This document shows, in pieces, positions 28,054-56,352 of a DNA stretch of 64,000 bases. Every line of letters starts with the position of its first letter. The stretch's first letter is position 1. Made by a program: the position numbers and the translations under genes. Below the pieces are notes generated by a model. It was given only the letters and a program-made list of their open reading frames with translations, did no database searches and was not told the DNA's origin. Source of the stretch: Allobosea sp. Tri-44 (lineage in GTDB: Bacteria > Pseudomonadota > Alphaproteobacteria > Rhizobiales > Beijerinckiaceae); contig NZ_NBDP01000007.1 in assembly GCF_004123845.1 (NCBI RefSeq), positions 248,001 through 312,000 on the forward strand, in the 5' to 3' direction.

Positions 28054-29112
28054 TCAGTCGGCGAGAGCAATCGGAATCGCGACGCCGAGGCGGCCGGCAC
28101 TGGCCTGAAGCGCGGCCAGCGTTGTCCTTGCGAGGGGGCAGAAGCCGTCGAAACGGCTGCGCGCCTGCGTTGCCCGATCGCCCGGCAGGCGGATGGGAGG
28201 GGCGCCGGGAACCGGCCTCGACTGCCGGATGTGGTCCGTGAACGTCGCTGCAGCGGTCTCGAACTCGGCGAGAGGGCGCATGCCCTCGATCTCGATCGCC
28301 ATGAACAGGTTGGCGCTGCCATAGGGCCGGGAGAGATCACCATAGAGCGGTTGCACCTCGCTGCCGATGCCGCCGGCCGAGAGGCCACCCGCGATAAGGT
28401 CGATCATCACGGCAAGGCCGAAGCCCTTTGCCCCGGCAGCAGGCAGGAGCACGCCCTTGATCGCCTCGGCCGCGTCGCGGGTCGGCAGCCCCTCGGCCGT
28501 TTGGGCCCAGCCTTCGGGAATGGGCTCGCTGTTGCTCGCCGCCAGCCTGACCTTGCCCATCGCGCCGGCGCTCATGGCGAGGTCGAGGACGATCGGCTCG
28601 CCGCCGGTCGGAATGGCGAGCGCCAGCGGGTTGTTGCCGACGACCGCCTCGGCTCCACCCGGCGCCGGCAGCATCGGGCGCGTATTGGCCATGACGATGC
28701 CGATCTTGCCGGTGAGCGCGATCTTGCGGGCAAAGCGCCCGGCGGCGCCGAAATGGAAGGCGTTGCGGATGGCGACGATCGCGACGCCGTGCTCGGCCGC
28801 ACGGGCGATCGCGATGTCGCAGGCCCGCTCGGCCGTGACATGGCCGAGCCCGTTCCTGGCGTCGATCGTCAGGCGCGCACCCGTGTCGACGACGATCTCG
28901 CCGCTGGCCGCCGGATCGACGGATTTCCGTTCGATCCGCTCCAGATACATCGGCAATTGCAGCAGGCCATGCGAGGCCAGGCCCTCGATATCGGCATCGA
29001 CGAGTGCCTGCGCCACCAGAGCGGCATTGCCTGGCGGCGTCCCGGCCGCCTCGAGCAAGGCGGCCGCGAAGGATCGCAGCGCCTCGGCTGAATAGCGGCC
29101 GGACGCTGCCAT
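28054..29112 (-). CDS. Ldh-family (malate/L-lactate/ureidoglycolate) NAD(P)-dependent dehydrogenase
   Basis: This 352-residue protein has the non-Rossmann type 2 malate/L-lactate dehydrogenase fold: SHGLLQLPMYLERI near residue 45 (catalytic histidine), GHVTAERACDIAIARAAEHG, ANTRPMLPAPGGAEAVVGNNPLA and KGFGLAVMIDLIAGGLSAGG. Members oxidise 2-hydroxy acids or reduce 2-oxo acids or imines with NAD(P)H. The start codon shares a base with the stop of the upstream binding-protein gene (TGATG), so the two are translationally coupled. The substrate is unknown; a 2-hydroxy or imino acid linked to an imported amino acid is plausible. Confidence 0.88.
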   Translation of the reverse strand: MAASGRYSAEALRSFAAALLEAAGTPPGNAALVAQALVDADIEGLASHGLLQLPMYLERIERKSVDPAASGEIVVDTGARLTIDARNGLGHVTAERACDIAIARAAEHGVAIVAIRNAFHFGAAGRFARKIALTGKIGIVMANTRPMLPAPGGAEAVVGNNPLALAIPTGGEPIVLDLAMSAGAMGKVRLAASNSEPIPEGWAQTAEGLPTRDAAEAIKGVLLPAAGAKGFGLAVMIDLIAGGLSAGGIGSEVQPLYGDLSRPYGSANLFMAIEIEGMRPLAEFETAAATFTDHIRQSRPVPGAPPIRLPGDRATQARSRFDGFCPLARTTLAALQASAGRLGVAIPIALAD

Positions 29113-30122
29113 CAGCGCACCGGCGGCGCGTATTGCAGGCCGCCCTTGGTCCAGAGCTTGTTGAGGCCACGCTCGATGCCGAGCTTCGAGCCCGCGCCGA
29201 CATTGCGCTCATAGACCTCGCCGTAATTGCCGACCTGCTTGACGATCTGCAGCGCCCAATCCGGCTTCAGCCCCATCGATTCGCCGAGATTTCCCGAGCC
29301 GCCGAGCAAGCGTTGCACTTCCGGCGAGCCGGTGCGCTTCATTTCGTCGGCATTGTTGGCGGTGACGCCGAGCTCCTCGGCGACGAGCATGGCATAGAGC
29401 GACCAGCGCACGATGCTGGTCCACATCTCGTCGCCCTGGCGCACGACGGGGCCAAGCGGCTCCTTCGAGATCAACTCCGGCAGGATCACGTATTCGGTCG
29501 GGTTGACCAGCTTCAGCCGGTAGGCCGAGAGCGCCGAGACGTCGTTGCTGAAGACGTCGCATCGGCCGGACTCGAAGGCCTTGGCGACCTGATCGCCGGC
29601 CTCGAAGGCGACGCCCTCATACTTCATGCCGTTCCCACGGAAATAGTCGGCGATGTTGAGCTCGGTGGTCGTGCCGGTCGGCACGCAGACCGAGGCCCCG
29701 TTGAGCTCTTTCGCCGATTTGATGTTCAGCGCCTTGCGAACCATGAAGCCCTGGCCGTCATAATAGCCGACGCCGACATAGCGCAGGCCCATCTGGGTGT
29801 CGCGCGACAGCGTCCAGGTCGCCTGCCGGGAGAGCAGGTCGATCTCGCCGCTCTGCAGGCTGACGAAGCGGTCCTTCGGGCTGAGCGGGGTGTAGCGGAC
29901 CTTGCCGGCATCGCCGAGGACGGCGGCAGCGACGGCCCGGCAGATGTCGACGTCGAAGCCGCCCCAGCGCCCGGCCTCGTCGGGCACCGAGAAGCCGGCG
30001 ACGCCCGGGCTGACGCCGCAGATCATCTCGCCGCGATTCCTGACGGTCTCGAGCGTGCCGGCGGCGGCGGGCATGGCGCAGGCCGCGATCAGGCCGGCGG
30101 CCGGCAACAGGCGTGTCTTCAT
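29112..30122 (-). CDS. Amino-acid ABC transporter substrate-binding protein (AapJ/BztA-like), orphan
   Basis: This 336-residue periplasmic protein has a Sec signal (KTRLLPAAGLIAACAMPAAA) and the general L-amino-acid-binding pattern. It shows RGEMICGVSPGVAGFSVPDE, GGFDVDICRAVAAAVLGD, SRQATWTLSRDT and KQVGNYGEVYERNVG. No permease or ATPase gene accompanies it, so it must dock to a transporter encoded elsewhere or act as a sensor. I placed the start at 30122, where the signal peptide begins; the frame stays open further upstream. It is coupled to the Ldh-type dehydrogenase gene and divergent from the aldolase operon. Confidence 0.9.
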   Translation of the reverse strand: MKTRLLPAAGLIAACAMPAAAGTLETVRNRGEMICGVSPGVAGFSVPDEAGRWGGFDVDICRAVAAAVLGDAGKVRYTPLSPKDRFVSLQSGEIDLLSRQATWTLSRDTQMGLRYVGVGYYDGQGFMVRKALNIKSAKELNGASVCVPTGTTTELNIADYFRGNGMKYEGVAFEAGDQVAKAFESGRCDVFSNDVSALSAYRLKLVNPTEYVILPELISKEPLGPVVRQGDEMWTSIVRWSLYAMLVAEELGVTANNADEMKRTGSPEVQRLLGGSGNLGESMGLKPDWALQIVKQVGNYGEVYERNVGAGSKLGIERGLNKLWTKGGLQYAPPVR

Positions 30123-30310
30123 TCGGATGCCCTTCCCCCCGAGTGTCGTATCCGACGTTTCCTCGCCGGGTCCCAGGGTGATCCTGACGGCTTTCTGACG
30201 CAGGGGGCGCGCGCCTCGGCTGATTTCGAGATGTGAAACGCAGGGACTTCCGGTCATATCCGGGAGCGGCAGTGCCATCATCCGATCATCGAAATCGGTA
30301 CGGCCTATCC
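30123..30310. promoter_or_regulatory. Divergent promoter region of binding-protein and aldolase operons
   Basis: This 188-bp interval must drive both the minus-strand binding protein/Ldh pair and the plus-strand aldolase/bicupin/DUF6282 operon. I saw no clear dyad and no regulator gene adjacent to it. Confidence 0.4.
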
Positions 30311-31111
30311 ATGCAGCCCCCTGCCCCAACCAGCTTTCGCCAACGCCTCGTCAGCGGCGCCTTCCTGGCGGGGAGCTTCGTCAAGACGCCGAGCCCGCAC
30401 GCCACCGAAATCCTCGGCAATAGCGGCTTCGACTTCATCGTCGTCGATCAGGAGCATGCGCCCTTCGATCGCGGCACGACCGACCTCGTGCTGCTGGCGG
30501 CACGGGCCGCCGGGATCGCCGGCGTCGTCCGCGTCCCGACGCTGACGAGCGACGCGATCCAGGTGTCGCTCGATTGCGGCGCGGTCGGCATCCTCGCTCC
30601 GCATGTCGCGAGCGTGGCTGATGCTGAGGCCCTCGTCGCCGCCTGCCGCTATCGCGGCGGCAAGCGCGGCTTCTCCGGCGTCACCCGCGCCGGCCGCTAT
30701 GGCGGCAGCAAGATGTGGGACCTCGTCGACGCGGCCGATGCGGCAGTGGCGACGATCGCCATGATCGAGGACCCGTCGGCGCTGGACCGGATCGACGCCA
30801 TCCTCGCGGTCGAGGGGTTGGACGCCGTCTTCATCGGCCGCGGCGACCTCACCGTCGCCTTCGGAGCCCCGACCCGCGATGCGCCTGCGGTCCGCGATGC
30901 GGTCGAAACGATCCTGCGCGCCGCGAAGAAGGCCGGCAAGCCGGTCTGCGTGATGACCGACAATGGCGAGGAATCCGCTGCCTTCGCCGAGCGCGGCGCC
31001 AGCGCCTTCATCCTCTCTTCGGACCAGGGCTTCCTGCGCAAGGCCGCGAGCGAAACCCTGGCGCAGATGCAGACAGCCAGGAGCCGGGTCGAGAACCCAG
31101 GCTCCCGATAG
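30311..31111 (+). CDS. HpcH/HpaI-family class II aldolase
   Basis: This 266-residue protein of the HpcH/HpaI aldolase family has GSFVKTPSPHATEILGNSGF, DFIVVDQEHAPFD (catalytic histidine and base), GVVRVPT with the substrate arginine, and IAMIEDPSALDRI (metal glutamate). VFIGRGDLTVAFG follows. Members cleave 2-keto-3-deoxy or 4-hydroxy-2-oxo acids to pyruvate and an aldehyde, using a divalent metal. The start at 30311 is the first ATG at the family N-terminus. It leads the plus-strand trio with the bicupin gene (13 bp downstream) and the DUF6282 gene. Confidence 0.9.
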   Translation: MQPPAPTSFRQRLVSGAFLAGSFVKTPSPHATEILGNSGFDFIVVDQEHAPFDRGTTDLVLLAARAAGIAGVVRVPTLTSDAIQVSLDCGAVGILAPHVASVADAEALVAACRYRGGKRGFSGVTRAGRYGGSKMWDLVDAADAAVATIAMIEDPSALDRIDAILAVEGLDAVFIGRGDLTVAFGAPTRDAPAVRDAVETILRAAKKAGKPVCVMTDNGEESAAFAERGASAFILSSDQGFLRKAASETLAQMQTARSRVENPGSR

Positions 31112-31124
31112 GAGATACGGACCC

Positions 31125-32042
31125 GTGAGCTATCCCTCCAGCGATCCGCGCTCGAAGCTGTCTGCGCCGGCGGCGACGAAGGCCGCGCCGGTCAAGGCGT
31201 ATGCCGGCGCCGACTATGCCCGCTTTTATGTTGAGGAGCCGCAGCACGCGAACGACAGCGAGCGCACCTGGCTGGCTCGCGGCCAGAACTTCATCGTCGC
31301 CTATTCGGATGTGAAGCCTGGCGCCGTGCTGGCACGCACGGCGCAGCCGGACGAATACTGCCTGATCCTGCCCGAAAAGGAGCTCGGAGCGACAGTCACC
31401 GCCGGAGCCGAGACGGTCGAGGTCGCGGGCGGCTCGATCGTCTTCGTGCCGCCGGGCGCCTCGCGCATCACGCTCAAGGGCACCGGCCGCGTCATCCGGA
31501 TCTTCTCCAGCGTCGCGACCGACCTGGCGGCGTCCTGCTCGAATGCCGCCTCCTATGCGCAGCCTCATGCCAATGTCGCGCTGCTGGAGCCCTGGCCGGA
31601 ACCATCAGGTGGCTTCAGGATCCGCGCCTACAGCCTCGATGCCGGCGGCGGCGAAGGCCGTTTCGGCCGCATCTTCCGCTGCACCACGCTGATGGTGAAC
31701 ATCCTCGATCCACGGATGGGCTTGCGCGACGTCACCGCGCTCTCGCCGCATCACCATGACGATTTCGAGCAGGGCTCGCTGGTCATCGACGGCGGCTACA
31801 TCCACGACATCCGCTGGCCGTGGACACCCGACATGCGGATCTGGCGCGAGGACGAGCACGAATTGATGGCCGCGCCATCGCTGACCGTGATCCCGCCGCC
31901 CTCGATCCACACCTCGCGCTCGGTCCTACCCGGGCTGAACCAGATGATCGACATCTTCTCGCCGCCCCGCCTCGACTTCTCGCAGAAGCCCGGCTGGGTC
32001 ATCAACGCCGCGGATTATCCGATGCCCGGCGAAACCGCCTGA
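31125..32042 (+). CDS. Bicupin-fold protein of unknown function
   Basis: This 305-residue protein starts at GTG 31125 behind TAGGAGA. It has two beta-barrel halves. The first (about 80-135) contains EYCLILPEKELG and GGSIVFVPPGASRITL. The second has a likely metal set in LSPHHHDDFEQGSLVIDGGY with a later histidine in VIPPPSIHTSRS, the cupin HxHx(n)E...H pattern. Such bicupins are sugar-acid isomerases, dioxygenases or lyases. No specific family is recognised. Its place between an aldolase and a metallohydrolase-like gene suggests a step in breaking down an oxidised sugar or hydroxy acid. Confidence 0.65.
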   Translation: MSYPSSDPRSKLSAPAATKAAPVKAYAGADYARFYVEEPQHANDSERTWLARGQNFIVAYSDVKPGAVLARTAQPDEYCLILPEKELGATVTAGAETVEVAGGSIVFVPPGASRITLKGTGRVIRIFSSVATDLAASCSNAASYAQPHANVALLEPWPEPSGGFRIRAYSLDAGGGEGRFGRIFRCTTLMVNILDPRMGLRDVTALSPHHHDDFEQGSLVIDGGYIHDIRWPWTPDMRIWREDEHELMAAPSLTVIPPPSIHTSRSVLPGLNQMIDIFSPPRLDFSQKPGWVINAADYPMPGETA

Positions 32043-32053
32043 GGGCCTGCGAC

Positions 32054-32986
32054 ATGACCTTGACCGCCCAGAAAGCCGACGCCCGCAGCCGGCAGATCGC
32101 CGACCTCCTGGTCGGCGCCGTCGACCTGCATTGCCATAGCGGCCCAGCCGCGATGCCGCGGATCCTCGACCATCACGAGGCGATGCTGGATGCCGCCGCG
32201 GCGAAGTTCCGCGCCGTCGTCTACAAGGATCATTTCTATCTCGGCACCGCCCACGCGATCCTGCTCGAGAAGCTCGTGCCTGACACCGGTGTCAGGCTGT
32301 TCTCGGGCATCGCGCTCAACAATGCCTCCGGCGGCTTCAACCCGCATGCGGTCGACCACGCCATCAAGCTCGGCGGCAAAATCGTCTGGATGCCGACGCT
32401 CTCGGCCAAGAACCATATCGACGTGCTCGCCTCCGGCGCGGTGAAGACCTTCCCGAAGACCGCACAGAAGATGCTCGACCCGATCCCGCTGACGCCGTTC
32501 GGGGCCGACGGCAAGCTCACTGACGACGTCAAGCTGATCCTCGACCTGATCGCGGCCGGCGACATCATCCTCGCCGGCGGGCATCTCTCTACGCCCGAGC
32601 TCTTCGCGGTGTTCGAGGAGGCGAAGGCGCGCGGCGTCAGGAAGCTGCTCGTCAACCATCCGACCTACATGGTCAACAATTGCAGCGATGCGGAAATCCG
32701 CGACCTCGTCTCGCTTGGCGCGGTGATGGAGCATTCGATCTGCATGTTCGTCGAAGGCAAGTCGAAGAAGTTCGAGCCGCCTGAGCTGCGCCGGGTGATC
32801 GAGGTCGCCGGCGTCGAGAACACCGTGCTCTGCTCGGACCTCGGCCTTACCGGCTCGCCGCGCCCGATCGATGGCTATCGCGAGGTCGTCGGCCATCTGC
32901 TCGACCTGCAGTTCACGGAGGCCGAGATCAAGCGCCTGACCGGCGGGCATGCGGCGGAGCTGCTGGGGTTGGAGGCGGCGGCCTGA
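32054..32986 (+). CDS. DUF6282-type metal-dependent hydrolase-like protein
   Basis: This 310-residue, probably TIM-barrel protein has amidohydrolase/PHP-like metal ligands spread along the chain. These are H26-x-H28 in VDLHCHSGPAAMPR, YKDHFYLGTAHA, AGGHLSTPEL, LLVNHPTYMVNN and LCSDLGLTGSP. The pattern predicts a cytosolic metal-dependent hydrolase or lactonase. I believe it is the DUF6282 family, which has no assigned reaction that I know of. The start at 32054 lies 11 bp after the bicupin stop, so the three plus-strand genes are one operon. Confidence 0.7.
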   Translation: MTLTAQKADARSRQIADLLVGAVDLHCHSGPAAMPRILDHHEAMLDAAAAKFRAVVYKDHFYLGTAHAILLEKLVPDTGVRLFSGIALNNASGGFNPHAVDHAIKLGGKIVWMPTLSAKNHIDVLASGAVKTFPKTAQKMLDPIPLTPFGADGKLTDDVKLILDLIAAGDIILAGGHLSTPELFAVFEEAKARGVRKLLVNHPTYMVNNCSDAEIRDLVSLGAVMEHSICMFVEGKSKKFEPPELRRVIEVAGVENTVLCSDLGLTGSPRPIDGYREVVGHLLDLQFTEAEIKRLTGGHAAELLGLEAAA

Positions 32987-33667: not shown

Positions 33668-34654
33668 TCAATCCAGCGAGATCGCCGCAGCCCGCACGAC
33701 ATCCGCCCATTTCGCCACTTCCTGGGTCTGAGCAGCCCGCACCGCCGCGGCGTCACCGCTGAGCGAACGCACGCCGATCGTGGCGAGCTTTTCACGCCCC
33801 TCGGTGCTCTCGACATAGGCGCGGGTGATCTTAGCGATGCGCGCCACGATCGGATCGGGCAGCCCTTTCGGCCCGACCAGCGCAAACCAGCCCGTCGCAC
33901 TGACGCCCGGCAACCCGGCCTCGGACAAGGTCGGTACCTCCGGCAATTGCGGGGCACGCTGGTCGCTTGTCACCGCAAGCGCGCGGATGGCGCCGCTTTT
34001 GACGTGGGGGATGTAGGCCGGGATGAAGTCGATCGCGACATTGACCATGCCCCCGACCAGATCGGCCGAGAGCGGGGCCGAGCCGCGATAGGGCACATGC
34101 GTCATCTGGAAGCCAGCCTTGCGCTGGATCAGCTCGCCGGTGACATGGCCCATCAGCCCGAAGCCGGGGCTGCCGAAGGTGAGCTTGCCGGGATTGGCCT
34201 TGCCGTAGGCGACGAGCTCGGCAAACGACGAGACCGGCAGCGAGGGATGGACGCTGACGATGCCCTGGACGTCGCCCAAGAGCGCGACCGGCGCGAAATC
34301 GGCCAGCGGATCGAAGGACATGGTCTTGTAGAGCAGCTTGTTGGTCGCGAGCGGCCCGGACGAGGAGAACAGCAGGGTGTAGCCATCCGGGGTCGCCCGG
34401 GCGACGCCGGTCGCCGCGATGTTGCCGCCAGCGCCGGTCTTGTTCTCGACGACGAAGCCCTGGCCGAGTTCGCTGCGCAACCGCTCCGCCAGCAGGCGAG
34501 CGACGACGTCGGTCGAGGCTCCCGCCGGGAACGGCACGACGATGGTGACCGGCCGGCTCGGCCAGGTATCGGCGAAGGCCCGCCCCTGTGTAGCCAGCGC
34601 GCCGGCGCCAGCGAGAGACGCCATGAAACGACGGCGTGAGATCGGCCGCATCAT
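33668..34654 (-). CDS. TctC/Bug-type tripartite tricarboxylate binding protein, orphan
   Basis: This protein of about 328 residues has a Tat leader (SRRRFMASLAGAGALATQG) and the Bug fold: WPSRPVTIVVPFPAGASTDV, GQGFVVENKTGAGGNIAATG, VHPSLPVSSFAELVAYGKAN, TFGSPGFGLMGHVTGEL. Bug proteins bind carboxylates or aromatic acids for TctAB transporters or for sensing. No TctA or TctB gene is nearby. The start is at 34654 (ATGATG; 34651 also possible) behind GGAAACC. An IclR regulator gene lies upstream on the same strand, followed by a quinone oxidoreductase and a fumarase-type hydratase, so the ligand is probably a dicarboxylate or an aromatic/imidazole acid. Confidence 0.88.
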   Translation of the reverse strand: MMRPISRRRFMASLAGAGALATQGRAFADTWPSRPVTIVVPFPAGASTDVVARLLAERLRSELGQGFVVENKTGAGGNIAATGVARATPDGYTLLFSSSGPLATNKLLYKTMSFDPLADFAPVALLGDVQGIVSVHPSLPVSSFAELVAYGKANPGKLTFGSPGFGLMGHVTGELIQRKAGFQMTHVPYRGSAPLSADLVGGMVNVAIDFIPAYIPHVKSGAIRALAVTSDQRAPQLPEVPTLSEAGLPGVSATGWFALVGPKGLPDPIVARIAKITRAYVESTEGREKLATIGVRSLSGDAAAVRAAQTQEVAKWADVVRAAAISLD

Positions 34655-34736: not shown

Positions 34737-35540
34737 CTATTTCTCGCCTTGAAACGCAACGCCCATGGATTGCGACAGCGCCTCGAGCTGCGCCTCGATA
34801 TTGGCCGCCGCCTTCTTCAGCGGATGGATGATTTTCGCCTTGTCATCCGGGTTAGGGACTGCGGCGCGGAAGAAGGTCACGCCGAAGGTCGCGAGCACGC
34901 GCTCGCCGAGCTTGATCGGCACCGCGATCGTCGCGGAATTCTTCGGCTCGGCGGCGGGATCCCGCTCGGTATAGCCGCGCCAGCGCGCCTGCGCGATCAT
35001 GCCCTCGACATCTTCGTCGCTGAGGCTGTTGTTCTCCGGCTCGGCCGAGGCGCGCATCGCAGCGCGCAGTACGTCGCGTTCCTCGTCGGGACAGAAGGCG
35101 AGATAGGCGCGTCCGAGCGCCCGGCCGCCGAGGTTCAGCCGGTAGCCGAGCGTCGCATGGAAGGGCGAGATCGGGCTGTCAGGAATCGTCGAGAAACGGA
35201 CGACCACGGCGTCGTAATCGAGTAGGCAGACCGCGCAGGGCCATTTGATCTGGCGCGTCAGCGCTGTGGCCCAGGGGCGCGCCGCCTCGATCACCATCGG
35301 CGCGCCATGGAAGCCCGAGCTCAGATGCGCCACCTGCGACGTCACGAGATAGCCGCGCATGCGCTCGTCGCGCACGACATAGCCGGCTTCCATCAGCGTC
35401 TCGAGCAGGCGCACGATCGTCGGCTTCGGCATGCCGGTACGGCGATGCAGTTCGCCGACGGTCGCGACACTGCAGCGATTGACCTCGGTCAGCAGCCGGA
35501 GCGCCTTGAGAACGGACTGAACGGGCGCGAAGGAGAACAC
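34737..35540 (-). CDS. IclR-family transcriptional regulator
   Basis: This 267-residue protein has an N-terminal winged helix (PVQSVLKALRLLTEVNRCSV, then TVGELHRRTGMPKPTIVRLLETL) and a C-terminal GAF-like effector domain (RYSLNLGGRALGRAYLAF-type segment YRLNLGGRALGRAYLAFCPD). IclR regulators respond to carboxylates and control adjacent catabolic genes. It starts at GTG 35540, directly after an in-frame stop. Likely targets are the fumarase/quinone oxidoreductase operon, the TctC gene and the divergent ammonia-lyase homologue. Confidence 0.92.
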   Translation of the reverse strand: MFSFAPVQSVLKALRLLTEVNRCSVATVGELHRRTGMPKPTIVRLLETLMEAGYVVRDERMRGYLVTSQVAHLSSGFHGAPMVIEAARPWATALTRQIKWPCAVCLLDYDAVVVRFSTIPDSPISPFHATLGYRLNLGGRALGRAYLAFCPDEERDVLRAAMRASAEPENNSLSDEDVEGMIAQARWRGYTERDPAAEPKNSATIAVPIKLGERVLATFGVTFFRAAVPNPDDKAKIIHPLKKAAANIEAQLEALSQSMGVAFQGEK

Positions 35541-35624: not shown

Positions 35625-36608
35625 CTATTCCGGCATGGTCAGGACAACCTTGCCGACCTGATCGCCCGCATCCATCAGCGCATGCGCATCCTGGACGTCG
35701 CGCCAGTCGAAGCTCGCGCAGATATGGCTGCGGATCGCCCCGCTCACCAGCAGCGGCCAGATTTGCGCCACCAGCTTGTTGGCGATCCGGCCCTTATAGG
35801 CGGCATCGCGTGGCCGCAGCGTCGAGCCGGTCAGGGTCAACCGCCGGCGCACGATGTTGCGGACATTGACCTCGGCCATCTGGCCGAGATGGCTGGCGAT
35901 CAGCACGACGCGCCCGTCCGGCGCGAGCAGTTGCAACTGCTTTTCGGTATAGGGGCCGGCCTGCGCGTCGAGGACGACGTCGACCTTCTCCTTGCCGATC
36001 GCCGCCTCGACCTCGCCTACCCAGTCGGCGCGGTAGTCGACGGCGAGGTCGGCGCCGATCTCCAGGCAAACCGCGCGCTTCTCGGCGGTGCCGGCGGTCG
36101 CGATCACGCGGGCGCTGCGGAGCTGCTTGGCAATCTGGATCGCGGCCATGCCGACGCCGCTGGTGCCGCCCTGGACCAAGAGAGTCTCGCCCTCAGCGAG
36201 CCGGCCGAGCCAGATGACGTTGTTCCAGGCAGTGAAGAACACCTCCGGCAGCGCCGCCGCCTCAGCGAAGGAGAAACCGGTCGGCAGCGGCATGCATTGC
36301 AGCGCCGGCACCGCGCAGAATTCGGCATAGCCGCCGCCATTGGCGAGCGCGCAGACGGCATCGCCGAGCTTCGGCCAGGCGACCTCGGCGCCGACAGCCT
36401 CGACCACGCCGGAAACGTCGAGGCCAGGCAGGTCGGTCGCACCGGGCGGTGGCGGGTAGAGGCCGCGCCGCTGCTGGATGTCGGGCCGGTTCACCCCGGC
36501 CGCCCGCACGCGGATCAGCACGTCGCCGGGACCGAGCACGGGCAATGGCCGCTCGCAAAAGGCAAGGACCTCGGGTCCGCCCGGCCTGGTGATCTCGATC
36601 GCTTGCAT
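35625..36608 (-). CDS. NAD(P)H:quinone oxidoreductase, PIG3/zeta-crystallin-like MDR enzyme
   Basis: This 327-residue zinc-free medium-chain dehydrogenase has AAGVNRPDIQQRRGLYPPPPG, GLDVSGVVEAVG and LPEVFFTAWNNVI. The NADPH motif is LLVQGGTSGVGMAAIQIAK. This is the PIG3 subgroup, which reduces quinones or activated enones with NADPH. The start shares a base with the stop of the fumarase beta gene upstream (TGATG), so it is the last gene of the three-gene operon TtdA-like, TtdB-like, oxidoreductase. In a pathway it could reduce an enone or unsaturated acid product. Confidence 0.9.
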   Translation of the reverse strand: MQAIEITRPGGPEVLAFCERPLPVLGPGDVLIRVRAAGVNRPDIQQRRGLYPPPPGATDLPGLDVSGVVEAVGAEVAWPKLGDAVCALANGGGYAEFCAVPALQCMPLPTGFSFAEAAALPEVFFTAWNNVIWLGRLAEGETLLVQGGTSGVGMAAIQIAKQLRSARVIATAGTAEKRAVCLEIGADLAVDYRADWVGEVEAAIGKEKVDVVLDAQAGPYTEKQLQLLAPDGRVVLIASHLGQMAEVNVRNIVRRRLTLTGSTLRPRDAAYKGRIANKLVAQIWPLLVSGAIRSHICASFDWRDVQDAHALMDAGDQVGKVVLTMPE

Positions 36609-37246
36609 CAGTTGGTCTCGTTGTCGGTTTCCGTGGGGCGGAGCGAGCGGATGATCTCCGGCAGGCGCTCGCGGGCAGACGTCATCAGGCGCTCATAGAT
36701 CGAGTTGCCATGGGCATCGATGGCGACGATCACCGGTCCGAAGCCGCCGAGCCGGAGCCGGTTCAGGCGGAACTGCATGATCAGGTCGCGCCAGGCGCAG
36801 TCGGTTACCGCCTCCACGCCTTCGCTCAGCAAGGCGGAGGCGCCGCCGACGAAGGAGAAATAGACGCAGCCGACTTCGCGCATCGCGTCGACGCTGTCCT
36901 GCGAGAGCCCGCCCTTGCCGCCGGTCGCGGTCAGGCGCAGCCCCCGGATCAGCGTCGGCATCAGGTGACTGAAGCGGCTCGACGTCGTCGGGTTGACGTA
37001 GTGGACCGCGCCGGGCCGCCCGTCATCGTCCTCATAGCTCACGCCCATATGGAAGAAGGTGCCGGCGCGCAGCGACAAAGGCAGTTCGCGGCCGGCCTCC
37101 AATTCCGCGACCATGCGCTTCTGGGTGGGCATTCCGACGGTCGCGACCGCATCGCCATCGAGCAGCACGACATCGCCGACCTTGAGCGCGCGCGCCGCTT
37201 CGGGCGTCAGCGGCAGGGTCAGACGTATCGGGGATGGGCTCGTCAT
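36608..37246 (-). CDS. Class I fumarase/tartrate dehydratase beta subunit (TtdB-like)
   Basis: This 212-residue protein matches the C-terminal (swivelling) domain of class I Fe-S hydro-lyases: LKVGDVVLLDGDAVATVG, GTFFHMGVSYED, TTSSRFSHLMPTLI, TATGGKGGLSQ and YFSFVGGASALL. Such subunits pair with an Fe-S alpha subunit to hydrate fumarate or mesaconate or to dehydrate tartrate. The start at 37246 overlaps the alpha-subunit stop by four bases. The product of the divergent lyase could be an unsaturated acid that this hydratase acts on, but this is inference. Confidence 0.9.
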   Translation of the reverse strand: MTSPSPIRLTLPLTPEAARALKVGDVVLLDGDAVATVGMPTQKRMVAELEAGRELPLSLRAGTFFHMGVSYEDDDGRPGAVHYVNPTTSSRFSHLMPTLIRGLRLTATGGKGGLSQDSVDAMREVGCVYFSFVGGASALLSEGVEAVTDCAWRDLIMQFRLNRLRLGGFGPVIVAIDAHGNSIYERLMTSARERLPEIIRSLRPTETDNETN

Positions 37247-38112
37247 TCGATCCGCTCCACCACGCCGGAATTGTAGATCCGCGCCCGCGTCCGCCGGTTG
37301 ATCCAGCAGTTGAACGAGACCGCGACCGGGGTGAAGCCGTGGCCGGAGGCGTATTCGACATGGACGCCGAAGGTCGTGGTCGAGCCGCCGACGCCCATCG
37401 GGCCGAAGCCCATCTGGTTCACGGCGCGGGTCAGGCGCTCCTCCATTGCGGCGACCATCGCCTCGGGATTGCGCTCGCCGAACGGCCGCAAGGTCGCGTC
37501 CTTGGAGAGCTTTGCGGCATGATCGAAAGTGCCGCCGATACCGACGCCGATCACCACCGGCGGGCAATGCTGGCCGCCGGCGCGCAGCACGATCTCCAGG
37601 ATGCAGCGCTCGATCTCGTCGAGGCTCGGGCTGACCAGTATCTCCACGGCGGCCCAGCGCCCGCCGCCGAGCGCCTTGGGGGCGCAGGTGATGTCGAGAT
37701 AGTCGCCCTCGCCGACGAGGTCCCAGGAGACCAGCGGCATGTCCTTGCCGTGAAAGCTGCGCTCATTGGTCAGCGGATTGGTGACGAAGCGCAGCAGCGG
37801 CGGCTGGATCGTGCGGGTGAGCTCGGCGAAGCCGTCAACGATGGCCTGGCGGATATCGCCCTCCATCCGCGCGCCGGAGCCGATCTTGATGCTGTAGCTC
37901 GGCACGCCGGCGTCCGAACACAGGAACTTGCCGGTGGTCTCGGCGCGCTCGGCGCTGTCCAGCATGAAGGCGAGTGTCTGGCGGGCCTGCGGCTCGGTTT
38001 CCGTCGCGAGCGCCTTGCGGAATTCGGCCTTCGAGGATTCAGGGATACGGCGCAGCGACCAATCATAGAGATTGGCGGTGACTTCCTTGACCAGATTATA
38101 GGTGATTGCCAT
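37243..38112 (-). CDS. Class I fumarase/tartrate dehydratase alpha subunit (TtdA-like)
   Basis: This 289-residue Fe-S hydro-lyase subunit has the three cluster cysteines in FLCSDAGVPSYSI (C65), GGQHCPPVVIGVGIGG and VSFNCWINRR. Also present are TNPLTNERSFHGKD and FGPMGVGGSTTTFGVHVEYA. The [4Fe-4S] cluster acts as Lewis acid on a dicarboxylate substrate. I chose ATG 38112; a GTG six bases earlier would add two residues. It is the first gene of the minus-strand operon with the beta subunit and the quinone oxidoreductase, divergent from the ammonia-lyase homologue. Housekeeping fumarases are usually encoded elsewhere, so a specialised substrate is likely. Confidence 0.9.
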   Translation of the reverse strand: MAITYNLVKEVTANLYDWSLRRIPESSKAEFRKALATETEPQARQTLAFMLDSAERAETTGKFLCSDAGVPSYSIKIGSGARMEGDIRQAIVDGFAELTRTIQPPLLRFVTNPLTNERSFHGKDMPLVSWDLVGEGDYLDITCAPKALGGGRWAAVEILVSPSLDEIERCILEIVLRAGGQHCPPVVIGVGIGGTFDHAAKLSKDATLRPFGERNPEAMVAAMEERLTRAVNQMGFGPMGVGGSTTTFGVHVEYASGHGFTPVAVSFNCWINRRTRARIYNSGVVERIE

Positions 38113-38292
38113 GCGCACCGTCCGTTCGACGGCGTGAAACTAGTCGATTGATAAGCGCTGGCTGAGAACCGGCGCCGTGTTTCGCATGATGAAATTGATG
38201 TGACGGTCCGCCCCCTGCCCCGGCTTCCCCTTAATGACAGGATCGGCAGAGCCTGCCGGCGCGCCGGCTGCACAGCAACAGGATGATCTGCC
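38113..38292. promoter_or_regulatory. Divergent promoter region with a 14-bp palindrome
   Basis: This 180-bp interval drives the fumarase operon (minus) and the ammonia-lyase homologue (plus). A perfect palindrome GCCGGCGCGCCGGC lies at 38255-38268, 25 bp before the lyase start. Palindromes of this kind can arise by chance in GC-rich DNA, but the position suits a repressor site, with the nearby IclR protein as candidate. Confidence 0.35.
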
Positions 38293-39744
38293 ATGAGCCA
38301 TGTGGACATCACCGGCTTCGATCTGACGATCGACGAGATCGTCCGCGTCTCCAGGCAAAAGACGCCCGTCTCCGTCACGCCGGATGCCGTTGAACGCATG
38401 GAGGCGGCCCGCGCAATCGTCGACGAAGCCGTGGCGCGCGGCGACAAGGTCTATGGCGTCACCACCAGCGTCGGCGCCAAAACCGGCGTCCCGCTCGCCC
38501 CTGAGCGCATCGGCGAGTTCAACCGCCGCCTGCTGCTCACCCACAACGTCGCGCACGGCCCCCTCGCCTCGCCCGAAGCCGTCAGGGCGATGATGCTCGT
38601 CCTGCTCAACTCAATGGCGAGCGGGCGCCTCGGTGTGCGGCCGCTGCTCGCCGAGCGACTCACTGCAGCCCTCAATGCCGACCGGCAGATCGACGTCCAC
38701 ATTTGGGGCTCGATGGGCCAGAGCGACATGGCCCCGATCACCGATCTTGCGCTCGCGCTCTACGGCGATATCGAGCTGCAGGCCGGCGAGGCGCTGGCAC
38801 TGCTCAATTCCAGCTCGCTCGCGCTCGGGACAGCGGCGCTCGCCATGGCGGATTTGCAGCGCAGTCTCGATCTGTGGAGCCTGGTCGCCGCGCTGAGCAT
38901 GGAGGGCTTCGCCGCCAACCCGTCGATCGTCTCCGAGGCCGCCTTGCGCTCGCGCCCCTTTGCCGGGCTGAAGCGGCATGGTGCCAGGATTCGTCATTAT
39001 CTCGACGGCAGCTATCTCTTCACCAAGGGTGGGCCGCGCCATCTGCAGGATCCCTTGAGCTTCCGCTCGCTGCCCTTGCTGCACGGCACGGCAGCCGACA
39101 GCCTTGGTTTCGCTTATCGCCAGGTCGAGACCGAGTTCCGCTCGAGCCAGAACAACCCGATCGTCTCGCTCGAGGATCGCTCGCTCGTCTCGGTCGCCAA
39201 TTTCGACACGGTCTCGCTGTCGATGGCGCTCGACATCGCCCGCCTTGCCTTCGCGCCGGTCGTGACGGCTTCCGCCGAGCGAGTCGCCAAGCTGGTCGAT
39301 TCCTTCTGGTCCGGGCTGACGGTGGGCCTGATCGAGGAGGACGGCGTCGGCCTGCCGGGCTTCAACGGCCTCGCCCAGTTTCATAAAGCGATCACCTCGG
39401 AGGCGAGGCTGGCTACCGCACCCGTGGTGCATGAACTCGCCAGTTCCAGCCACTCCAACGGCAATCTCGACCGGGCCGGCATGGCGGGGCTGGCGGCAAG
39501 GAAGACGGCAGAGGTTGCAAGCCTGTGCCGCTCTATCGCGGCAATCGAGCTTCTCGTCGCGGCTCAGGCCGTCGATATCAGGAAGGCCACACCGCTTGGC
39601 TCGGTCACAAGCAAGCTCCACACACTGGTTCGGGAGGTGATCCCGTTCGCCGCAGCGGGCGATCGCGTTCCCCATCTCGATCCGCTGCTGCAGCATCTCG
39701 AGGAACGCAACAGCGACGTCCAACGCATGATCGAGCTGGGTTGA
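38293..39744 (+). CDS. Aromatic amino-acid ammonia-lyase (HAL/PAL) homologue lacking the MIO triad
   Basis: This 483-residue protein aligns along its length with histidine/phenylalanine ammonia-lyases. It shows the Tyr loop VYGVTTSVGAKTG (Y54), LLNSSSLALGTAALAMAD, LQDPLSFRSLPLLHG, FRSSQNNPIV and a SVANFDTVSLSMALDIARLA helix. At the cofactor position, where HAL has GSVGASGDLAPL, it reads G139-S-M-G-Q-S-D-M-A-P148. The Ala-Ser-Gly that cyclises into the MIO electrophile is missing and one residue is deleted. The DNA there is clean, with no frameshift. It must therefore use a different mechanism, as the MIO-less relative ergothionase does, or have lost lyase activity. It stands alone, divergent from a fumarase-type operon. 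Confidence 0.85.
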   Translation: MSHVDITGFDLTIDEIVRVSRQKTPVSVTPDAVERMEAARAIVDEAVARGDKVYGVTTSVGAKTGVPLAPERIGEFNRRLLLTHNVAHGPLASPEAVRAMMLVLLNSMASGRLGVRPLLAERLTAALNADRQIDVHIWGSMGQSDMAPITDLALALYGDIELQAGEALALLNSSSLALGTAALAMADLQRSLDLWSLVAALSMEGFAANPSIVSEAALRSRPFAGLKRHGARIRHYLDGSYLFTKGGPRHLQDPLSFRSLPLLHGTAADSLGFAYRQVETEFRSSQNNPIVSLEDRSLVSVANFDTVSLSMALDIARLAFAPVVTASAERVAKLVDSFWSGLTVGLIEEDGVGLPGFNGLAQFHKAITSEARLATAPVVHELASSSHSNGNLDRAGMAGLAARKTAEVASLCRSIAAIELLVAAQAVDIRKATPLGSVTSKLHTLVREVIPFAAAGDRVPHLDPLLQHLEERNSDVQRMIELG

Positions 39745-45204: not shown

Positions 45205-46753
45205 GGTGCATCCCCATTCGGACGATGTTCTCTTCGGAGAGTTCGGAGCGGGAGAGTTCGCCGACGAGGCGCTTGTCGCGCATCACGTAGGCGCGGTCGC
45301 AGACATGGACGATCTCGGCCTGCTCGGAGGAGATCATCAGCACCGCGGCGCCATCGGCTACGAGCTGGTCGATCAGCGCGAAGATCTCGGACTTGGCGCC
45401 GACGTCGATGCCGCGGGTCGGCTCGTCGAAGATGAACAGCCTTGTGCCGGCGGCGAGCCACTTGCCGATCACCACCTTCTGCTGGTTGCCGCCGGAGAGC
45501 AGCGCGACGCTCTGGTTCGGCGATGGTGTCGCGATCCGCAGCCGCTTGATCAGCTCCTCGGCCGAGCGCTGCGCCCGGCGCGGCGAGAACATCCCGTTCG
45601 GGAAGAGCTTGGGCAAAGCGGCGACGGCGAGGTTGTCGGCGACCGTGCGGATCAGCGCGAGGCCTTCGATCTTGCGGCTTTCCGGGATGAGGCCGACACC
45701 GGCGAAGACGGCAGCGTCGGGCCCGCCGCGCCTGGCCTTTCCGAAGATGCTGATCTCGCCAGCCGTGACCTCGTCGGCGCCGAAGACGGCGCGCGCGACC
45801 TCGGTCCTGCCGGAGCCGACCAGGCCGCACAGGCCGACGATCTCACCGGCGCGCACCGTCAGGTCGATGTCGCGGATGCCGTTCTTGGCGCAGAGGCCCT
45901 TGACCTCAAGCACGATCTCGCCCGGCTGCTGCGCGAAGTTGCGCGGATAGCTCATGTCGACAGTGCGGCCAACCATCATGCGCACCAGCGCATCCGGCGT
46001 GGTCTCGCCCGGCCGCGCCCGGCCGACGAGCTTGCCGTCGCGCAGCACCGTGATCCGGTCGCCGAGCGCGAACACCTCCGCCATGCGGTGCGAGATGTAG
46101 ACGATGGCGACGCCCTTCGCCTGCAGCTGGCGCATCACCTCGAAGAGGCGCTCGGTCTCGCGATCGGAGAGCGCGGCGGTCGGCTCGTCCATGACGAGGA
46201 TGCGCGCGTCCTGCGACAGCGCCTTGCCGATCTCGACCATCTGCTGCTGAGCGACGCCGAGCGTGTGGACCTTGGTCCTGGGATCGACATCGAGGCCGAT
46301 CAGGTCGAGCACCGCCTGCGCCTCACGATAGAGCCGCCGGCGGTCGACGAGACCGGGAATGCGCGACGGGAATTCGCGGCCGAGGAAGATGTTCTGCGCC
46401 ACGTCGAGATAGGGGACGAGCGAGAACTCCTGGAAGATCACGGCGATGCCGAGCTTGCGGGCATCCGCCGGCGAGCGGATCTCGACCTTCTCGCCCTTGT
46501 GGAAGTATTCGCCAGCATCGGCCTGATAGGCGCCGCACAGCACCTTCATCAGCGAGGATTTGCCGGCGCCGTTCTCGCCGAGCAGCATGTGCACCTGGCC
46601 CGGCCAGAGAGCGAAGGAGACGTCGTCGAGCGCCTTCACGCCGGGGAAGGTCTTGGAGATACCCCTGAGCTCGAAGAGCGGCACGCCTTCGGCGGTGACA
46701 GGCGGCGGGGCAGCCGCTTCGAAGTCGGGCTTCATCGCCGTCATCGCGCTCAT
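45197..46753 (-). CDS. Ribose-type ABC transporter ATPase (RbsA family, two nucleotide-binding domains)
   Basis: This 518-residue tandem ATPase has a first domain with Walker A LLGENGAGKSSLMKVL, QQQMVEIGKALSQDARILVM and DEPTAALSDRE. The second domain has the degenerate P-loop GLVGSGRTEVAR usual for RbsA, the signature LLSGGNQQKVVIGKW and IFDEPTRGID. I chose ATG 46753 because the family start follows; the frame is open further upstream only in the overlapping oxidase gene. It is coupled by ATGA to that oxidase and overlaps the permease by eight bases. Confidence 0.93.
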   Translation of the reverse strand: MSAMTAMKPDFEAAAPPPVTAEGVPLFELRGISKTFPGVKALDDVSFALWPGQVHMLLGENGAGKSSLMKVLCGAYQADAGEYFHKGEKVEIRSPADARKLGIAVIFQEFSLVPYLDVAQNIFLGREFPSRIPGLVDRRRLYREAQAVLDLIGLDVDPRTKVHTLGVAQQQMVEIGKALSQDARILVMDEPTAALSDRETERLFEVMRQLQAKGVAIVYISHRMAEVFALGDRITVLRDGKLVGRARPGETTPDALVRMMVGRTVDMSYPRNFAQQPGEIVLEVKGLCAKNGIRDIDLTVRAGEIVGLCGLVGSGRTEVARAVFGADEVTAGEISIFGKARRGGPDAAVFAGVGLIPESRKIEGLALIRTVADNLAVAALPKLFPNGMFSPRRAQRSAEELIKRLRIATPSPNQSVALLSGGNQQKVVIGKWLAAGTRLFIFDEPTRGIDVGAKSEIFALIDQLVADGAAVLMISSEQAEIVHVCDRAYVMRDKRLVGELSRSELSEENIVRMGMHHD

Positions 46754-48171
46754 GACGCGCCTCCGATCTGCGCGGGCGAACGGAAGATCTTGCCGGGGTT
46801 CATGATCCCCAGCGGATCGAGCGCCTGCTTCACCAGGCGCATGGCATCGACGGCCTCGCCCAGTTCCAACTCGAGGAAATCGATCTTGCCGAGGCCGATG
46901 CCGTGCTCGCCGGTGCAGGTGCCGTCGAGCGCGATCGCCCGCCGCACCAGGCGTTCGTTGAAGGCCTTGGCCCGGGCGAGTTCCTCGGCGTTGGCGGGAT
47001 CGATCAAAACAAGGAGGTGGAAATTGCCGTCGCCGACATGGCCGACGACCGGAGCGATCAGCCCGGCCGCCTCGATGTCCGCCGCGGTGGCGACGAGGCA
47101 TTCGGCCAGGCGCGAGATCGGCACGCAGACATCGGTGACCAGAGCGCGCGCGCCCGGCCGCAAGGCGAGCCCGGCATAGAGCGTGTTGTCGCGGGCCCGC
47201 CAGAGACGGCTGCGTTCCTCCGGCGTGGTCGCCCAGGCAAAGCCCTGGCCGCCGAATTCGCCGGCCAGCGCCTGCGCCGTCTCGGCCTGCTCGGCAACAT
47301 AGCTCTTCGAGCCGTGGAACTCGAAGAAGAGATGCGGCGCCTCCGGCAAGCCGAGCCCGGCGTGCAGGTTCATGCCGCGCATCATCACCGCGTCGAGCAG
47401 TTCGATGCGCGCCACCGGAACGCCGGACTGGATGACCGCGATCGCCGTGTCGACCGCGGCCTTCAGGTCCGGAAAGCTGCAGACCGCCGAGGAGATGGCC
47501 TCGGGCTGGGGATGGAGCTTGAGCGTCACCTCGGTGATGACGCCGAGCGTCCCTTCCGCGCCGACGAACAGGCGGGTGAGGTCATAGCCGGCGGCGGATT
47601 TGCGGGCGCGCCGTGCCGTCCGGATCACGCGGCCATCGGCGAGCACGGCCTCGAGGCCGAGCACATTGTCCTTCATCGTGCCGTAGCGCACCGCCATGGT
47701 GCCCGAGGCGCGCGTCGAGGCCATGCCGCCGATCGAGGCGTCGGCGCCGGGATCGATCGGGAAGAACAGCCCGGTGTCGCGCAATTGCGCATTGAGCTGC
47801 TTGCGGGTGATGCCGGGCTGGACGCGCACATCCATGTCCTCCGGGCTCGCCGCCAGCACCTTGTCCATACGGGACATGTCGATGCAGACGCCCCCCAGCG
47901 GCGCTGAAGCGTTGCCTTCGAGCGAGGTACCGGCGCCGAACGGGATGACCGGCAGCAGCAGATCGCGGCAAACCGCTACGATGTCGCGCACCTCCTCGGT
48001 GGTTTCCGGAAAGGTGACGAGATCAGGCGGCGAGGCCGCATGATAGGCCTCGCTGCGGCCATGGTCGGCGAGGACGCCGGGGGCGCGGCTGACGCGCGAG
48101 CCGAGCGTATCGGCCAACCGCGCCAGTGCCGTTTCCGTGGCGGCGCCATCCGGGGATGGTCTGGTCAACAT
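46750..48171 (-). CDS. FAD-linked oxidase (GlcD/D-lactate dehydrogenase-like)
   Basis: This 473-residue flavoprotein has a PCMH FAD domain (VIPFGAGTSLEGNASAPLGG, GLFFPIDPGADASIGGMAST, GTMKDNVLGLEAVLADG, FVGAEGTLGVITEVTLKL) and the C-terminal cap ending CTGEHGIGLGKIDFLELELG. It oxidises 2-hydroxy acids such as glycolate or D-lactate and passes electrons to quinone or cytochrome. The start at 48171 has GGGAGGAAG. It lies between the ring-cleavage dioxygenase gene (65 bp) and the importer ATPase gene (ATGA overlap). A 2-hydroxy acid side chain of the imported compound is a possible substrate. Confidence 0.9.
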   Translation of the reverse strand: MLTRPSPDGAATETALARLADTLGSRVSRAPGVLADHGRSEAYHAASPPDLVTFPETTEEVRDIVAVCRDLLLPVIPFGAGTSLEGNASAPLGGVCIDMSRMDKVLAASPEDMDVRVQPGITRKQLNAQLRDTGLFFPIDPGADASIGGMASTRASGTMAVRYGTMKDNVLGLEAVLADGRVIRTARRARKSAAGYDLTRLFVGAEGTLGVITEVTLKLHPQPEAISSAVCSFPDLKAAVDTAIAVIQSGVPVARIELLDAVMMRGMNLHAGLGLPEAPHLFFEFHGSKSYVAEQAETAQALAGEFGGQGFAWATTPEERSRLWRARDNTLYAGLALRPGARALVTDVCVPISRLAECLVATAADIEAAGLIAPVVGHVGDGNFHLLVLIDPANAEELARAKAFNERLVRRAIALDGTCTGEHGIGLGKIDFLELELGEAVDAMRLVKQALDPLGIMNPGKIFRSPAQIGGAS

Positions 48172-48236
48172 TGGTTTCTTCCTCCCGATTGGCCCGCTGA
48201 CCGGGCTCTCTCGATTGCAGTCGATGATTGCTGGGC

Positions 48237-50038: not shown

Positions 50039-50048
50039 TCCGCTGTCC

Positions 50049-51413: not shown

Positions 51414-51415
51414 GC

Positions 51416-52504: not shown

Positions 52505-52547
52505 CGGGGACTCCCTGCGGAAGAGACGTTGATCGGGCGGTGCCGGC

Positions 52548-52922
52548 TCACTCGCCGGCGACGACTTCGCGGTGGCGGTGCAGATCGCTTCCGGCAAAGA
52601 CCGGGGTGTCCGCGTCGGCGAGATAGTCGACCTGGAAGCGCGCGATCCTGAGATCGGCCAGCTCCTGCCGGACCCTCAGATGCTCGGGATGGCTGCCATA
52701 GGCTTCCAGCGCAGCGCGATCGGCAAACTCGCTGACCAGAACGACATCGCAGGCATAGTCGACACCGCTGACGTCCGCGCCGATCTCGATATGGGTGAGA
52801 CCGTCGATGCGGCCCCGAAGCCCCTCGAAGGCAGCCTTGACCTTGGCGCGGGCAGCGGCGCGCTCCTGCGGCGTGTCTCCACGCAAGCGCCACATCACGA
52901 TGTGGCGGACCGGACCGGACAT
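52548..52922 (-). CDS. Dabb-domain (stress-responsive A/B barrel) protein
   Basis: This 124-residue dimeric alpha+beta-barrel protein has VRHIVMWRLRGDTPQERAAA, DGLTHIEIGADVSGVDYACD and VLVSEFADRAALEAYGSHPE with the usual HPEH-type ending. Dabb proteins are found in many catabolic operons and some are cyclases or monooxygenase-like. It is the first gene of the long minus-strand operon and is divergent from a LysR regulator gene 118 bp away. Confidence 0.88.
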   Translation of the reverse strand: MSGPVRHIVMWRLRGDTPQERAAARAKVKAAFEGLRGRIDGLTHIEIGADVSGVDYACDVVLVSEFADRAALEAYGSHPEHLRVRQELADLRIARFQVDYLADADTPVFAGSDLHRHREVVAGE

Positions 52923-52981
52923 GGCGTTTCCTCGACCTTAGGCCATCGTTCTTGGGCCGTCGTTGTCCGGCGAGTTAAGAC

Positions 52982-55180: not shown

Positions 55181-55207
55181 GACCTCTCTGCGGAGCGATC
55201 AGTCATT

Positions 55208-56342: not shown

Positions 56343-56352
56343 GGCGTCCTTC

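Follow-up and report, generated by a model that had tools for sequence, protein, structure and literature searches.

The window, by which we mean the whole 64,000-nucleotide stretch analysed, carries an open and uninterrupted reading frame encoding a HAL/PAL-fold protein of 483 amino acids, which together with its relatives we call family A. The gene lies in a catabolic cluster, the features of which are collected in Table 1. The Pfam profile PF00221 (Lyase_aromatic) scored 321.3 bits with the protein, the gathering cut-off being 27.3, and the Pfam profile search found no second domain. Scores with the NCBIfam histidine ammonia-lyase (HAL) profiles stayed below their cut-offs (TIGR01225, 230.6 bits against 539.15; NF006871, 253.9 against 524). 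The closest solved structure by sequence was the ergothionase of Treponema denticola (phmmer E 4.9e-42). The AlphaFold2 model, built with 39 aligned sequences, had a mean pLDDT of 92.0, with a value of 59 in the block 381–390, and its top Foldseek match was ergothionase 6s7j (E 2.8e-29, TM 0.89, 24% identity, 498 alignment columns), the histidine ammonia-lyases ranking close behind.

Table 1. Features of the lyase gene and of its surroundings (positions in the window)
Feature	Position	Strand	Basis or remark
MIO-less HAL/PAL-fold lyase (family A)	38293..39744	+	ORF, Pfam, AlphaFold2, fold match
Tyr54, Tyr-loop tyrosine	38452..38454	+	Tyr in 50/50 aligned rows
GSMGQSDMAP (residues 139–148), replacing MIO-forming GSxGASGDLAP	38707..38736	+	loop one residue shorter
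Arg258	39064..39066	+	Arg in 50/50 aligned rows
Phe363-His364-Lys365	39379..39387	+	His364 and Lys365 in 11/11 family-A rows, 0/39 others
SSHSNGNLDR (residues 385–394)	39445..39474	+	family-specific His387, Asn389, Arg394; superfamily Glu position is Leu392
Fumarase/tartrate-dehydratase-type hydratase, alpha subunit (fumA)	37243..38112	-	divergent from lyase; profile matches
Fumarase-type hydratase, beta subunit (fumB)	36608..37246	-	profile matches
PIG3-family NAD(P)H oxidoreductase	35625..36608	-	NCBIfam
IclR-type regulator	34737..35540	-	profile matches
TctC-type solute-binding protein	33668..34624	-	Pfam
DUF6282 protein	32054..32986	+	Pfam, model
Cupin-like protein, no Pfam family	31125..32042	+	conserved residues
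HpcH/HpaI-type aldolase	30311..31111	+	nearest GarL and HpaI, under NCBIfam cut-offs
Amino-acid-type solute-binding protein (SBP_bac_3)	29112..30122	-	best NCBIfam match Lys/Arg/Orn binding, under cut-off
Ldh_2-type 2-hydroxyacid dehydrogenase	28054..29112	-	profile match
TTTCGCATGATGAAA, conserved imperfect palindrome, putative operator	38180..38194	.	divergent lyase/fumA promoter
TTTCGAGATGTGAAA, same kind of palindrome	30224..30238	.	divergent SBP/HpcH promoter

When 101 genomes were searched, 20 of them (the window's own counted) gave a match at E up to 1e-40. The matches comprised nine full-length close copies in other genomes (85–93% identity) and eight full-length paralogues at 68–70%, besides fragments and more distant homologues; altogether, close copies at 85–93% were found in 11 other genomes. 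A search of genome contigs yielded 76 loci, 14 of them of family A, from Bosea, other Rhizobiales and one contig binned as Marmoricola. The distant relatives are the protein of that contig (61%) and one encoded on a plasmid of Pseudorhodobacter turbinis (55%). In larger samples, where scoring was limited to the best few candidates per genome, matches at the strict limit were found in 2/397 genomes of the order, 1/385 of the class and 2/199 of the family, the window's own genome counted each time, and every such match was in that genome or in one of its genus. Family A is patchily distributed. Comparison of the lyase with four close copies gave dN/dS values of 0.106, 0.156, 0.124 and 0.118 (the neighbouring fumA, for comparison, 0.04–0.08). 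The gene is intact and under purifying selection, and values of 0.11–0.16 make it most unlikely that the gene is decaying or reflects a sequencing error.

MIO, the self-made catalytic group of classical HAL/PAL enzymes, is formed from Ala-Ser-Gly. We aligned 50 sequences, 11 of family A and 39 others, and classed 21 of the latter as MIO rows. Between Gly142 and Asp145, the loop is three residues long in 21/21 MIO rows (18 with ASG, three with CSG or SSG), two residues long in 28 of the 29 others and a single residue long in the remaining row. The ORF and the alignment agree with the sequence-only reading, which had described a HAL/PAL-type protein with Tyr54, the motif GSMGQSDMAP, one residue deleted and a clean frame, and had concluded that the MIO triad is absent. 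All 17 full-length members from the genus, that is, the nine close copies and the eight paralogues, read GSMG(Q/E)SDM(A/S)P, and the short loop is also retained in Rhizobiales 2SD, in the protein of the Marmoricola-binned contig and in the Pseudorhodobacter plasmid protein; every full-length family-A copy found has it. A triad elsewhere in the protein, which the same reading had named as a possible objection, was looked for by alignment. The sole other Ala-Ser-Gly, at residues 109–111, was rejected as a displaced MIO triad, since it is not aligned with the MIO position and is kept in only six of 10 family relatives (ATG in three and ANG in one).

The MIO-less rows besides family A are ergothionase, four groups that we call R, B, C and D, a protein of Sinorhizobium pSymA and two odd rows. 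Group R is drawn from Rhizobium, Mesorhizobium, Salinicola, Ancylobacter, Martelella and others, and the members of groups B, C and D come from the genus or the order to which the window belongs. The superfamily is represented four times in the genome of the window; two of these proteins have the triad, a third belongs to group C and the fourth is the window protein. At least six short-loop groups are present among the sequences fetched, a frequency of triad-less relatives that the sequence-only reading had missed. MIO-less relatives being frequent among the fetched sequences, the missing triad by itself does little to set family A apart. The Sinorhizobium pSymA copy and a Martelella plasmid copy are MIO-less yet annotated hutH, histidine ammonia-lyase; the absent triad contradicts this annotation, which would misdirect pathway prediction.

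Beyond the loop, positions 362 and 392 presumably correspond to Lys384 and Glu411 of T. denticola ergothionase, and we take position 392 to be also that of the catalytic Glu414 of Pseudomonas putida HAL. Maurer et al., in 2019, reportedly name four essential catalytic residues of ergothionase. In the 15 rows that represent ergothionase and groups R, B, C and D, position 362 is always Lys, whereas the 11 family-A rows have Gln (nine) or Leu (two); this Lys is also missing from the pSymA protein of Sinorhizobium and from the two further odd rows with a short loop. Position 392 is Glu in 39/39 rows outside family A, with or without the triad (21/21 MIO rows; 14/14 rows of groups R, B, C and D), whereas family A has Leu in nine rows and Met in two (n = 11). 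His364 and Lys365 lie two and three residues, respectively, past the position of the ergothionase-type Lys. According to the alignment, the window protein retains Tyr54 (which we take to be Y53 of HAL), Arg258 (presumably at the position of the carboxylate-binding Arg of HAL), Phe304 and Asp393.

A comparison that omitted the D row and the two odd short-loop rows revealed 26 polar positions that do not vary among the 11 family-A rows and occur in at most 20% of the 15 other MIO-less rows and of the 21 MIO rows; nine of the 11 family-A rows are close kin, so that the word invariant rests mostly on the two distant rows. Thirteen of the 26 (Ser59, Thr64, Thr83, His88, Ser144, Ser173, His364, Lys365, Ser385, Ser386, His387, Asn389 and Arg394) fall, we assume, in active-site loop segments. 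As judged by sequence, the active site has been largely rebuilt, while the fold, a putative base and a putative carboxylate anchor have been kept. The joint absence of MIO, Lys and Glu, together with the rebuilt invariant set and a place inside a catabolic cluster, is unusual. In the open-access literature searched, we found neither an account of this combination nor a HAL-fold protein with a GSMGQSDMAP-type motif, a statement that covers the available portions of PMC13405746, PMC9732360, PMC3903478 and PMC9002059.

The best tree of all 50 rows put family A beside ergothionase and the Sinorhizobium protein with weak support (94/73), and AU tests of alternative placements among the MIO-less groups gave 0.30 and 0.14, so that these were not rejected. 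In a tree of 47 rows, from which the changed loop columns and the rows L052, L080 and L025 (the D row) were left out, the 21 MIO rows formed one side of a branch supported at 100/99.9 with family A outside it, which speaks against family A being nested within the MIO enzymes. Grouping of family A and the MIO rows as one clade received an AU p of 0.007, which rose to 0.36 when L052, L080, L025 and the loop columns were removed, and we place no weight on the first value; family A may therefore be sister to the MIO enzymes. In the 50-row tree, the short-loop row L052 (GSVGYLTHMA) stood among the MIO rows and the short-loop row L080 adjoined them. The short loop may thus have arisen more than once, or the long branches L052 and L080 may be misplaced.

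We compared the surroundings of the lyase in 12 close clusters, the window's included; these were counted as distinct genomes, overlapping records from two collections having been matched, among other means by identity. The lyase was accompanied by FumA, FumB, PIG3, IclR and TctC in 12/12 and by HpcH, cupin and DUF6282 in 11/12, the twelfth being an 11,982-base contig that ends first. The SBP_bac_3 protein was seen in seven and Ldh_2 in five of the 12 stretches. Both distant lyases (61% and 55%) have HpcH and cupin genes at a distance of at most about 4 kb; one of these loci contains DUF6282 and the other Amidohydro_2, and both contain a flavin-reductase-like gene and an IclR gene. The paralogues (68–70%) are accompanied by a solute-binding protein, GST, CoA-transferase III, a CMD-like protein, Amidohydro_2, enoyl-CoA hydratases and GntR, a set found whole or in part in 7/7 loci examined. 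Because the paralogues are tied to a different gene set, one substrate may not fit both. On two plasmids, GST, CoA-transferase, CMD and enoyl-CoA hydratase genes adjoin fumAB, with no lyase annotated in the stretch.

Among the neighbours, the DUF6282 protein has an HxH motif, His177 and Asp262 that are invariant in 28 sequences. Its model is an amidohydrolase-type barrel (mean pLDDT 94.4) that best matched a Pseudomonas aeruginosa amidohydrolase (E 5.1e-9, TM 0.65). A single-sequence search against solved structures gave a match at E 0.12; the sole match of the DUF6282 profile there was discarded, as it covered 26 positions of a designed repeat protein. A literature search on DUF6282 found no paper. 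In the cupin, His209, His211, Glu215 and His262 are invariant in 14 sequences, and this three-His-one-Glu set looks like a metal site. Searches of solved structures with the cupin, DUF6282, HpcH and FumA proteins gave reaction classes only and named no substrate.

Alignment of the intergenic regions revealed a 15-base inverted repeat, TTTC-N7-GAAA, at near-constant positions. It was present in 13/13 lyase/fumA rows (12 genomes) and in 9/9 HpcH/SBP rows that could be extracted from the 13 loci, and in none of the 13 loci was it found within 120 bases upstream of IclR or of TctC. For the strict form TTTCRNNNNNTGAAA, the window has three occurrences where 0.04 would be expected, and 0/100 shuffles reached three; the third occurrence, at 54733, is within a predicted LysR gene. 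In the whole 6.05-Mb genome the strict form was found at six places, two of which are the lyase/fumA and SBP/HpcH promoters, and the reversed control pattern gave three forward matches and one reverse. The Pseudorhodobacter locus has two palindrome places, both strands matching (0.30 matches expected; 2/100 shuffles reached four). The first falls between the HpcH gene and the flavin-reductase/cupin genes, the second between IclR and the lyase. No palindrome was detected in the Marmoricola locus or in the three paralogue loci scanned. Thus a common palindrome, and not position alone, links the lyase to the core, both in the genus of the window and in Pseudorhodobacter. We propose the IclR-type regulator as the binder of this putative operator.

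The HpcH/cupin/DUF6282 core also recurs in other bacteria. From 27 cupin-matching plasmid records we chose ten plasmid loci (19-kb stretches). HpcH aldolase adjoined the cupin in 9/10 and DUF6282 was present in 6/10, and no lyase match was found within the 19-kb stretch in any of the ten. DUF6282 occurs in 35/199 genomes of the order; the 20 stretches around the better-scoring DUF6282 genes (two of which overlap) contained HpcH in 14 and cupin in 11, and none of these stretches, all from other genomes, contained the lyase. Eight of 30 lyase-less cupin/DUF6282 loci (L123, L163, L165, L166, L168, L169, L174 and L180) had the palindrome immediately upstream of a gene for HpcH, cupin, IclR or PIG3, a count made without a shuffled control. 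L186 has TTTC-N7-GAAA between fumA and Ldh_2, and the remaining lyase-less loci had no palindrome near the core genes.

We also compared the transporter genes of loci with and without the lyase. In the ten lyase-less plasmid loci, the carriers were of the TRAP or TTT carboxylate type in five, amino-acid ABC in one and MFS in one, and some of the loci also contained ABC parts for which no substrate is stated. Amino-acid-type or Pot-like ABC parts lie near each of the four lyase lineages: SBP_bac_3 near the close copies and the paralogues, and Pot-like ABC parts near the two distant lineages, all these names being under the curated cut-offs and the Pot-like ones far under, with overlap with sulfate and phosphonate carriers. 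The contrast of 4/4 lyase lineages against 1/10 lyase-less loci (Fisher p 0.005, with post hoc classes and related lineages) was drawn up after seeing the data and is suggestive only. The window cluster itself also carries TctC. Its identified genes include no glycine-betaine-type transporter. Most simply, the lyase would allow an amine-bearing substrate to enter a pathway for carboxylates. Together with its transporter parts, it offers a clue to the compound degraded by the recurrent core.

Our proposal, which we hold at about even chances, is that the window protein is a MIO-less HAL/PAL-fold lyase that catalyzes a pathway-entry beta-elimination of an amino-acid-like compound, yielding an alpha,beta-unsaturated carboxylate for the neighbouring enzymes. 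The amino (or substituted-amino) group would be stripped from the compound by Tyr54, acting as the base that takes the beta proton, with Arg258 holding the substrate carboxylate, both roles being modelled on HAL and ergothionase. Without an electrophile, the leaving group would have to be protonated or already good. Because neither the ergothionase-type Lys nor the superfamily Glu is present, we assign the part of leaving-group acid to the family-specific His364, Lys365 and His387, perhaps also His88. The unsaturated carboxylate could then be hydrated by the class-I-fumarase-type hydratase, oxidised by the 2-hydroxyacid dehydrogenase and cleaved by the HpcH aldolase, and the cupin and the amidohydrolase-type enzyme may also take part in degrading the lyase product. 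The catalytic roles given to these residues rely on alignment, and the neighbouring enzymes indicate reaction classes and are not proof of order or substrate. We infer the reaction type, the catalytic roles, the order of the steps and the IclR-type protein as binder.

With the superfamily Glu lost, the reaction could also be a different one. The substrate might be a non-amine intermediate of the pathway, and the protein a lyase, dehydratase or isomerase that works by C-O or C-S elimination or by double-bond chemistry; the HAL fold would have been re-used and its amine chemistry lost. The absence of both MIO and Glu fits such a change, as does the company of FumAB, PIG3 and HpcH, which by family are carboxylate or carbonyl enzymes, but the retention of Tyr54, Arg258 and Phe304 argues against it, as do, weakly, the transporter parts of amino-acid or Pot-like type that lie near each of the four lyase lineages. 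We consider it unlikely, though a serious candidate. It seems improbable that the protein is an ergothionase, or another trimethylamine-lyase using an amino-acid betaine, whose active site has diverged. Ergothionase is the best match both by sequence and by fold, shares the short loop and adjoins family A in the best tree, and its Lys is not universal, as the Sinorhizobium protein that groups with it also lacks this residue. However, the Lys present in 15/15 rows of ergothionase and groups R, B, C and D is found in 0/11 family-A rows, as is the Glu, and the tree does not fix the placement, given the AU values of the alternatives. Moreover, the other MIO-less copy of the same genome, which lies beside an OpuAC-type betaine transporter, is a better ergothionase candidate. 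The sequence-only reading had suggested a lyase of a different mechanism, possibly acting on a quaternary amine. The former is still the best reading, given the absent triad, ergothionase as the nearest solved structure and the place of the gene in a conserved catabolic cluster, but a simple transfer from ergothionase is not supported, in view of Gln/Leu and Leu/Met in place of Lys and Glu and of the identified cluster genes, none of which is a betaine-type transporter. A quaternary-amine substrate is possible but not indicated.

The other suggestion of that reading, a non-catalytic sensor, is very unlikely, and a non-catalytic scaffold equally so. The replacement of two elsewhere-conserved positions by Leu/Met and Gln/Leu is what such a protein might show, but new invariant His, Lys and Arg residues have appeared in the same segments, Tyr54, Arg258, Phe304 and Asp393 are kept, the gene is under purifying selection with a single Pfam domain, and the palindrome and the neighbours are of metabolic type. 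That the sequence is an ordinary MIO lyase altered by a sequencing or assembly error can practically be dismissed: the same loop is present in all full-length family relatives, and the Lys and Glu positions differ too.

Returning to the MIO-less beta-eliminating lyase, we tentatively suggest, with a little less than even confidence, that family A represents a third HAL/PAL-fold solution, working without either MIO or the ergothionase Lys/Glu by means of a new His-Lys/His set. It would have been recruited together with an amino-acid-type importer, feeding an undescribed amino compound into an HpcH/cupin/DUF6282/fumarase-type pathway under an IclR-type operator. Family A offers a natural case for studying how the fold of a C-N lyase can work once its electrophilic cofactor and a conserved Glu are gone.

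Compared with known systems, family A shares with HutH and the other MIO enzymes (PAL, TAL and aminomutases) the fold and the positions Tyr54, Asp145, Asn172, Arg258, Phe304 and Asp393. It differs from them in having no Ala-Ser-Gly at the MIO site and no Glu at 392, and the window protein has Leu at position 255, where the MIO enzymes have Tyr. With ergothionase (the ergothioneine trimethylamine-lyase of T. denticola, PDB 6s7j/6s7q) it has in common the HAL/PAL fold, the MIO site without Ala-Ser-Gly, the two-residue loop, the QDPLSFR segment and the Tyr loop, whereas ergothionase has Lys (362) and Glu (392) in place of Gln/Leu and Leu/Met, the identity in the structural match is 24%, and the window cluster has no betaine-type transporter among its identified genes. 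Unlike family A, one example each of groups R and C lies next to an ornithine-cyclodeaminase-like gene and to ABC transporters of the glycine-betaine type. The four groups R, B, C and D, which are predicted to be ergothionase-like, share with family A the short loop and GSxGxxD, but keep the Lys in 14/14 rows and the Glu in 14/14 rows.

The genome that holds the window encodes a second HAL/PAL member without the Ala-Ser-Gly (MIO) triad. The alignment showed that this protein retains both the Lys and the Glu that are kept in Treponema denticola ergothionase (aligned to Gln362 and Leu392, respectively, of the window lyase). Its gene adjoins genes for an OpuAC-type binding protein, permeases and an ATPase, and an ornithine-cyclodeaminase-like gene. 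The product is a better candidate than the window lyase for an ergothionase-type betaine lyase.

In another genome of the genus (L020; G035, contig C11), the sole match to the window lyase's own family was partial (query residues 294-480) and lay inside a long contig, and the gene is apparently broken. One of the two Salinicola corii members has a loop that is shorter still (GSVGYLTHMA) and was placed among the MIO rows of the tree. The Pseudofrankia member adjoins a lyase with the variant triad CSG.

Elsewhere in the window, the HpcH aldolase, cupin and DUF6282 genes form a set that recurs in several Alphaproteobacteria, and parts of it are also present on Rhodococcus and Streptomyces plasmids. 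A search of open-access literature found no paper on DUF6282. Genes of aromatic-catabolic type lie downstream in the window.

Features and their coordinates (L, fetched loci; G000, the window's genome; C, contig)
Feature	Location	Strand	Motif
HpcH aldolase, cupin without Pfam family, DUF6282	window 30311-32986; relatives elsewhere		
Catechol-dioxygenase-type protein, iron-containing dehydrogenase, VanA-like oxygenase, aminotransferase	window 46750-58616		
MIO-less HAL/PAL member, window's genome	G000:C12:239255-240634 (L121:9139-10539)	-	GSLGEADLSP
Two MIO-less members, close together, Salinicola corii	L052:5964-7463; L052:9980-11473		
Very divergent HAL/PAL member, Pseudofrankia contig	L080:17172-18587	-	GSIGTGDLSALA
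MIO-less protein annotated hutH, Sinorhizobium meliloti pSymA	L113:7938-9578		GSVGQADMT

On pSymA, the S. meliloti hutH-annotated gene has an ABC transporter and a gene of the DMSP_lyase family nearby. Its product has the same Tyr loop (GVGWNKD) as T. denticola ergothionase but lacks the latter's Lys.
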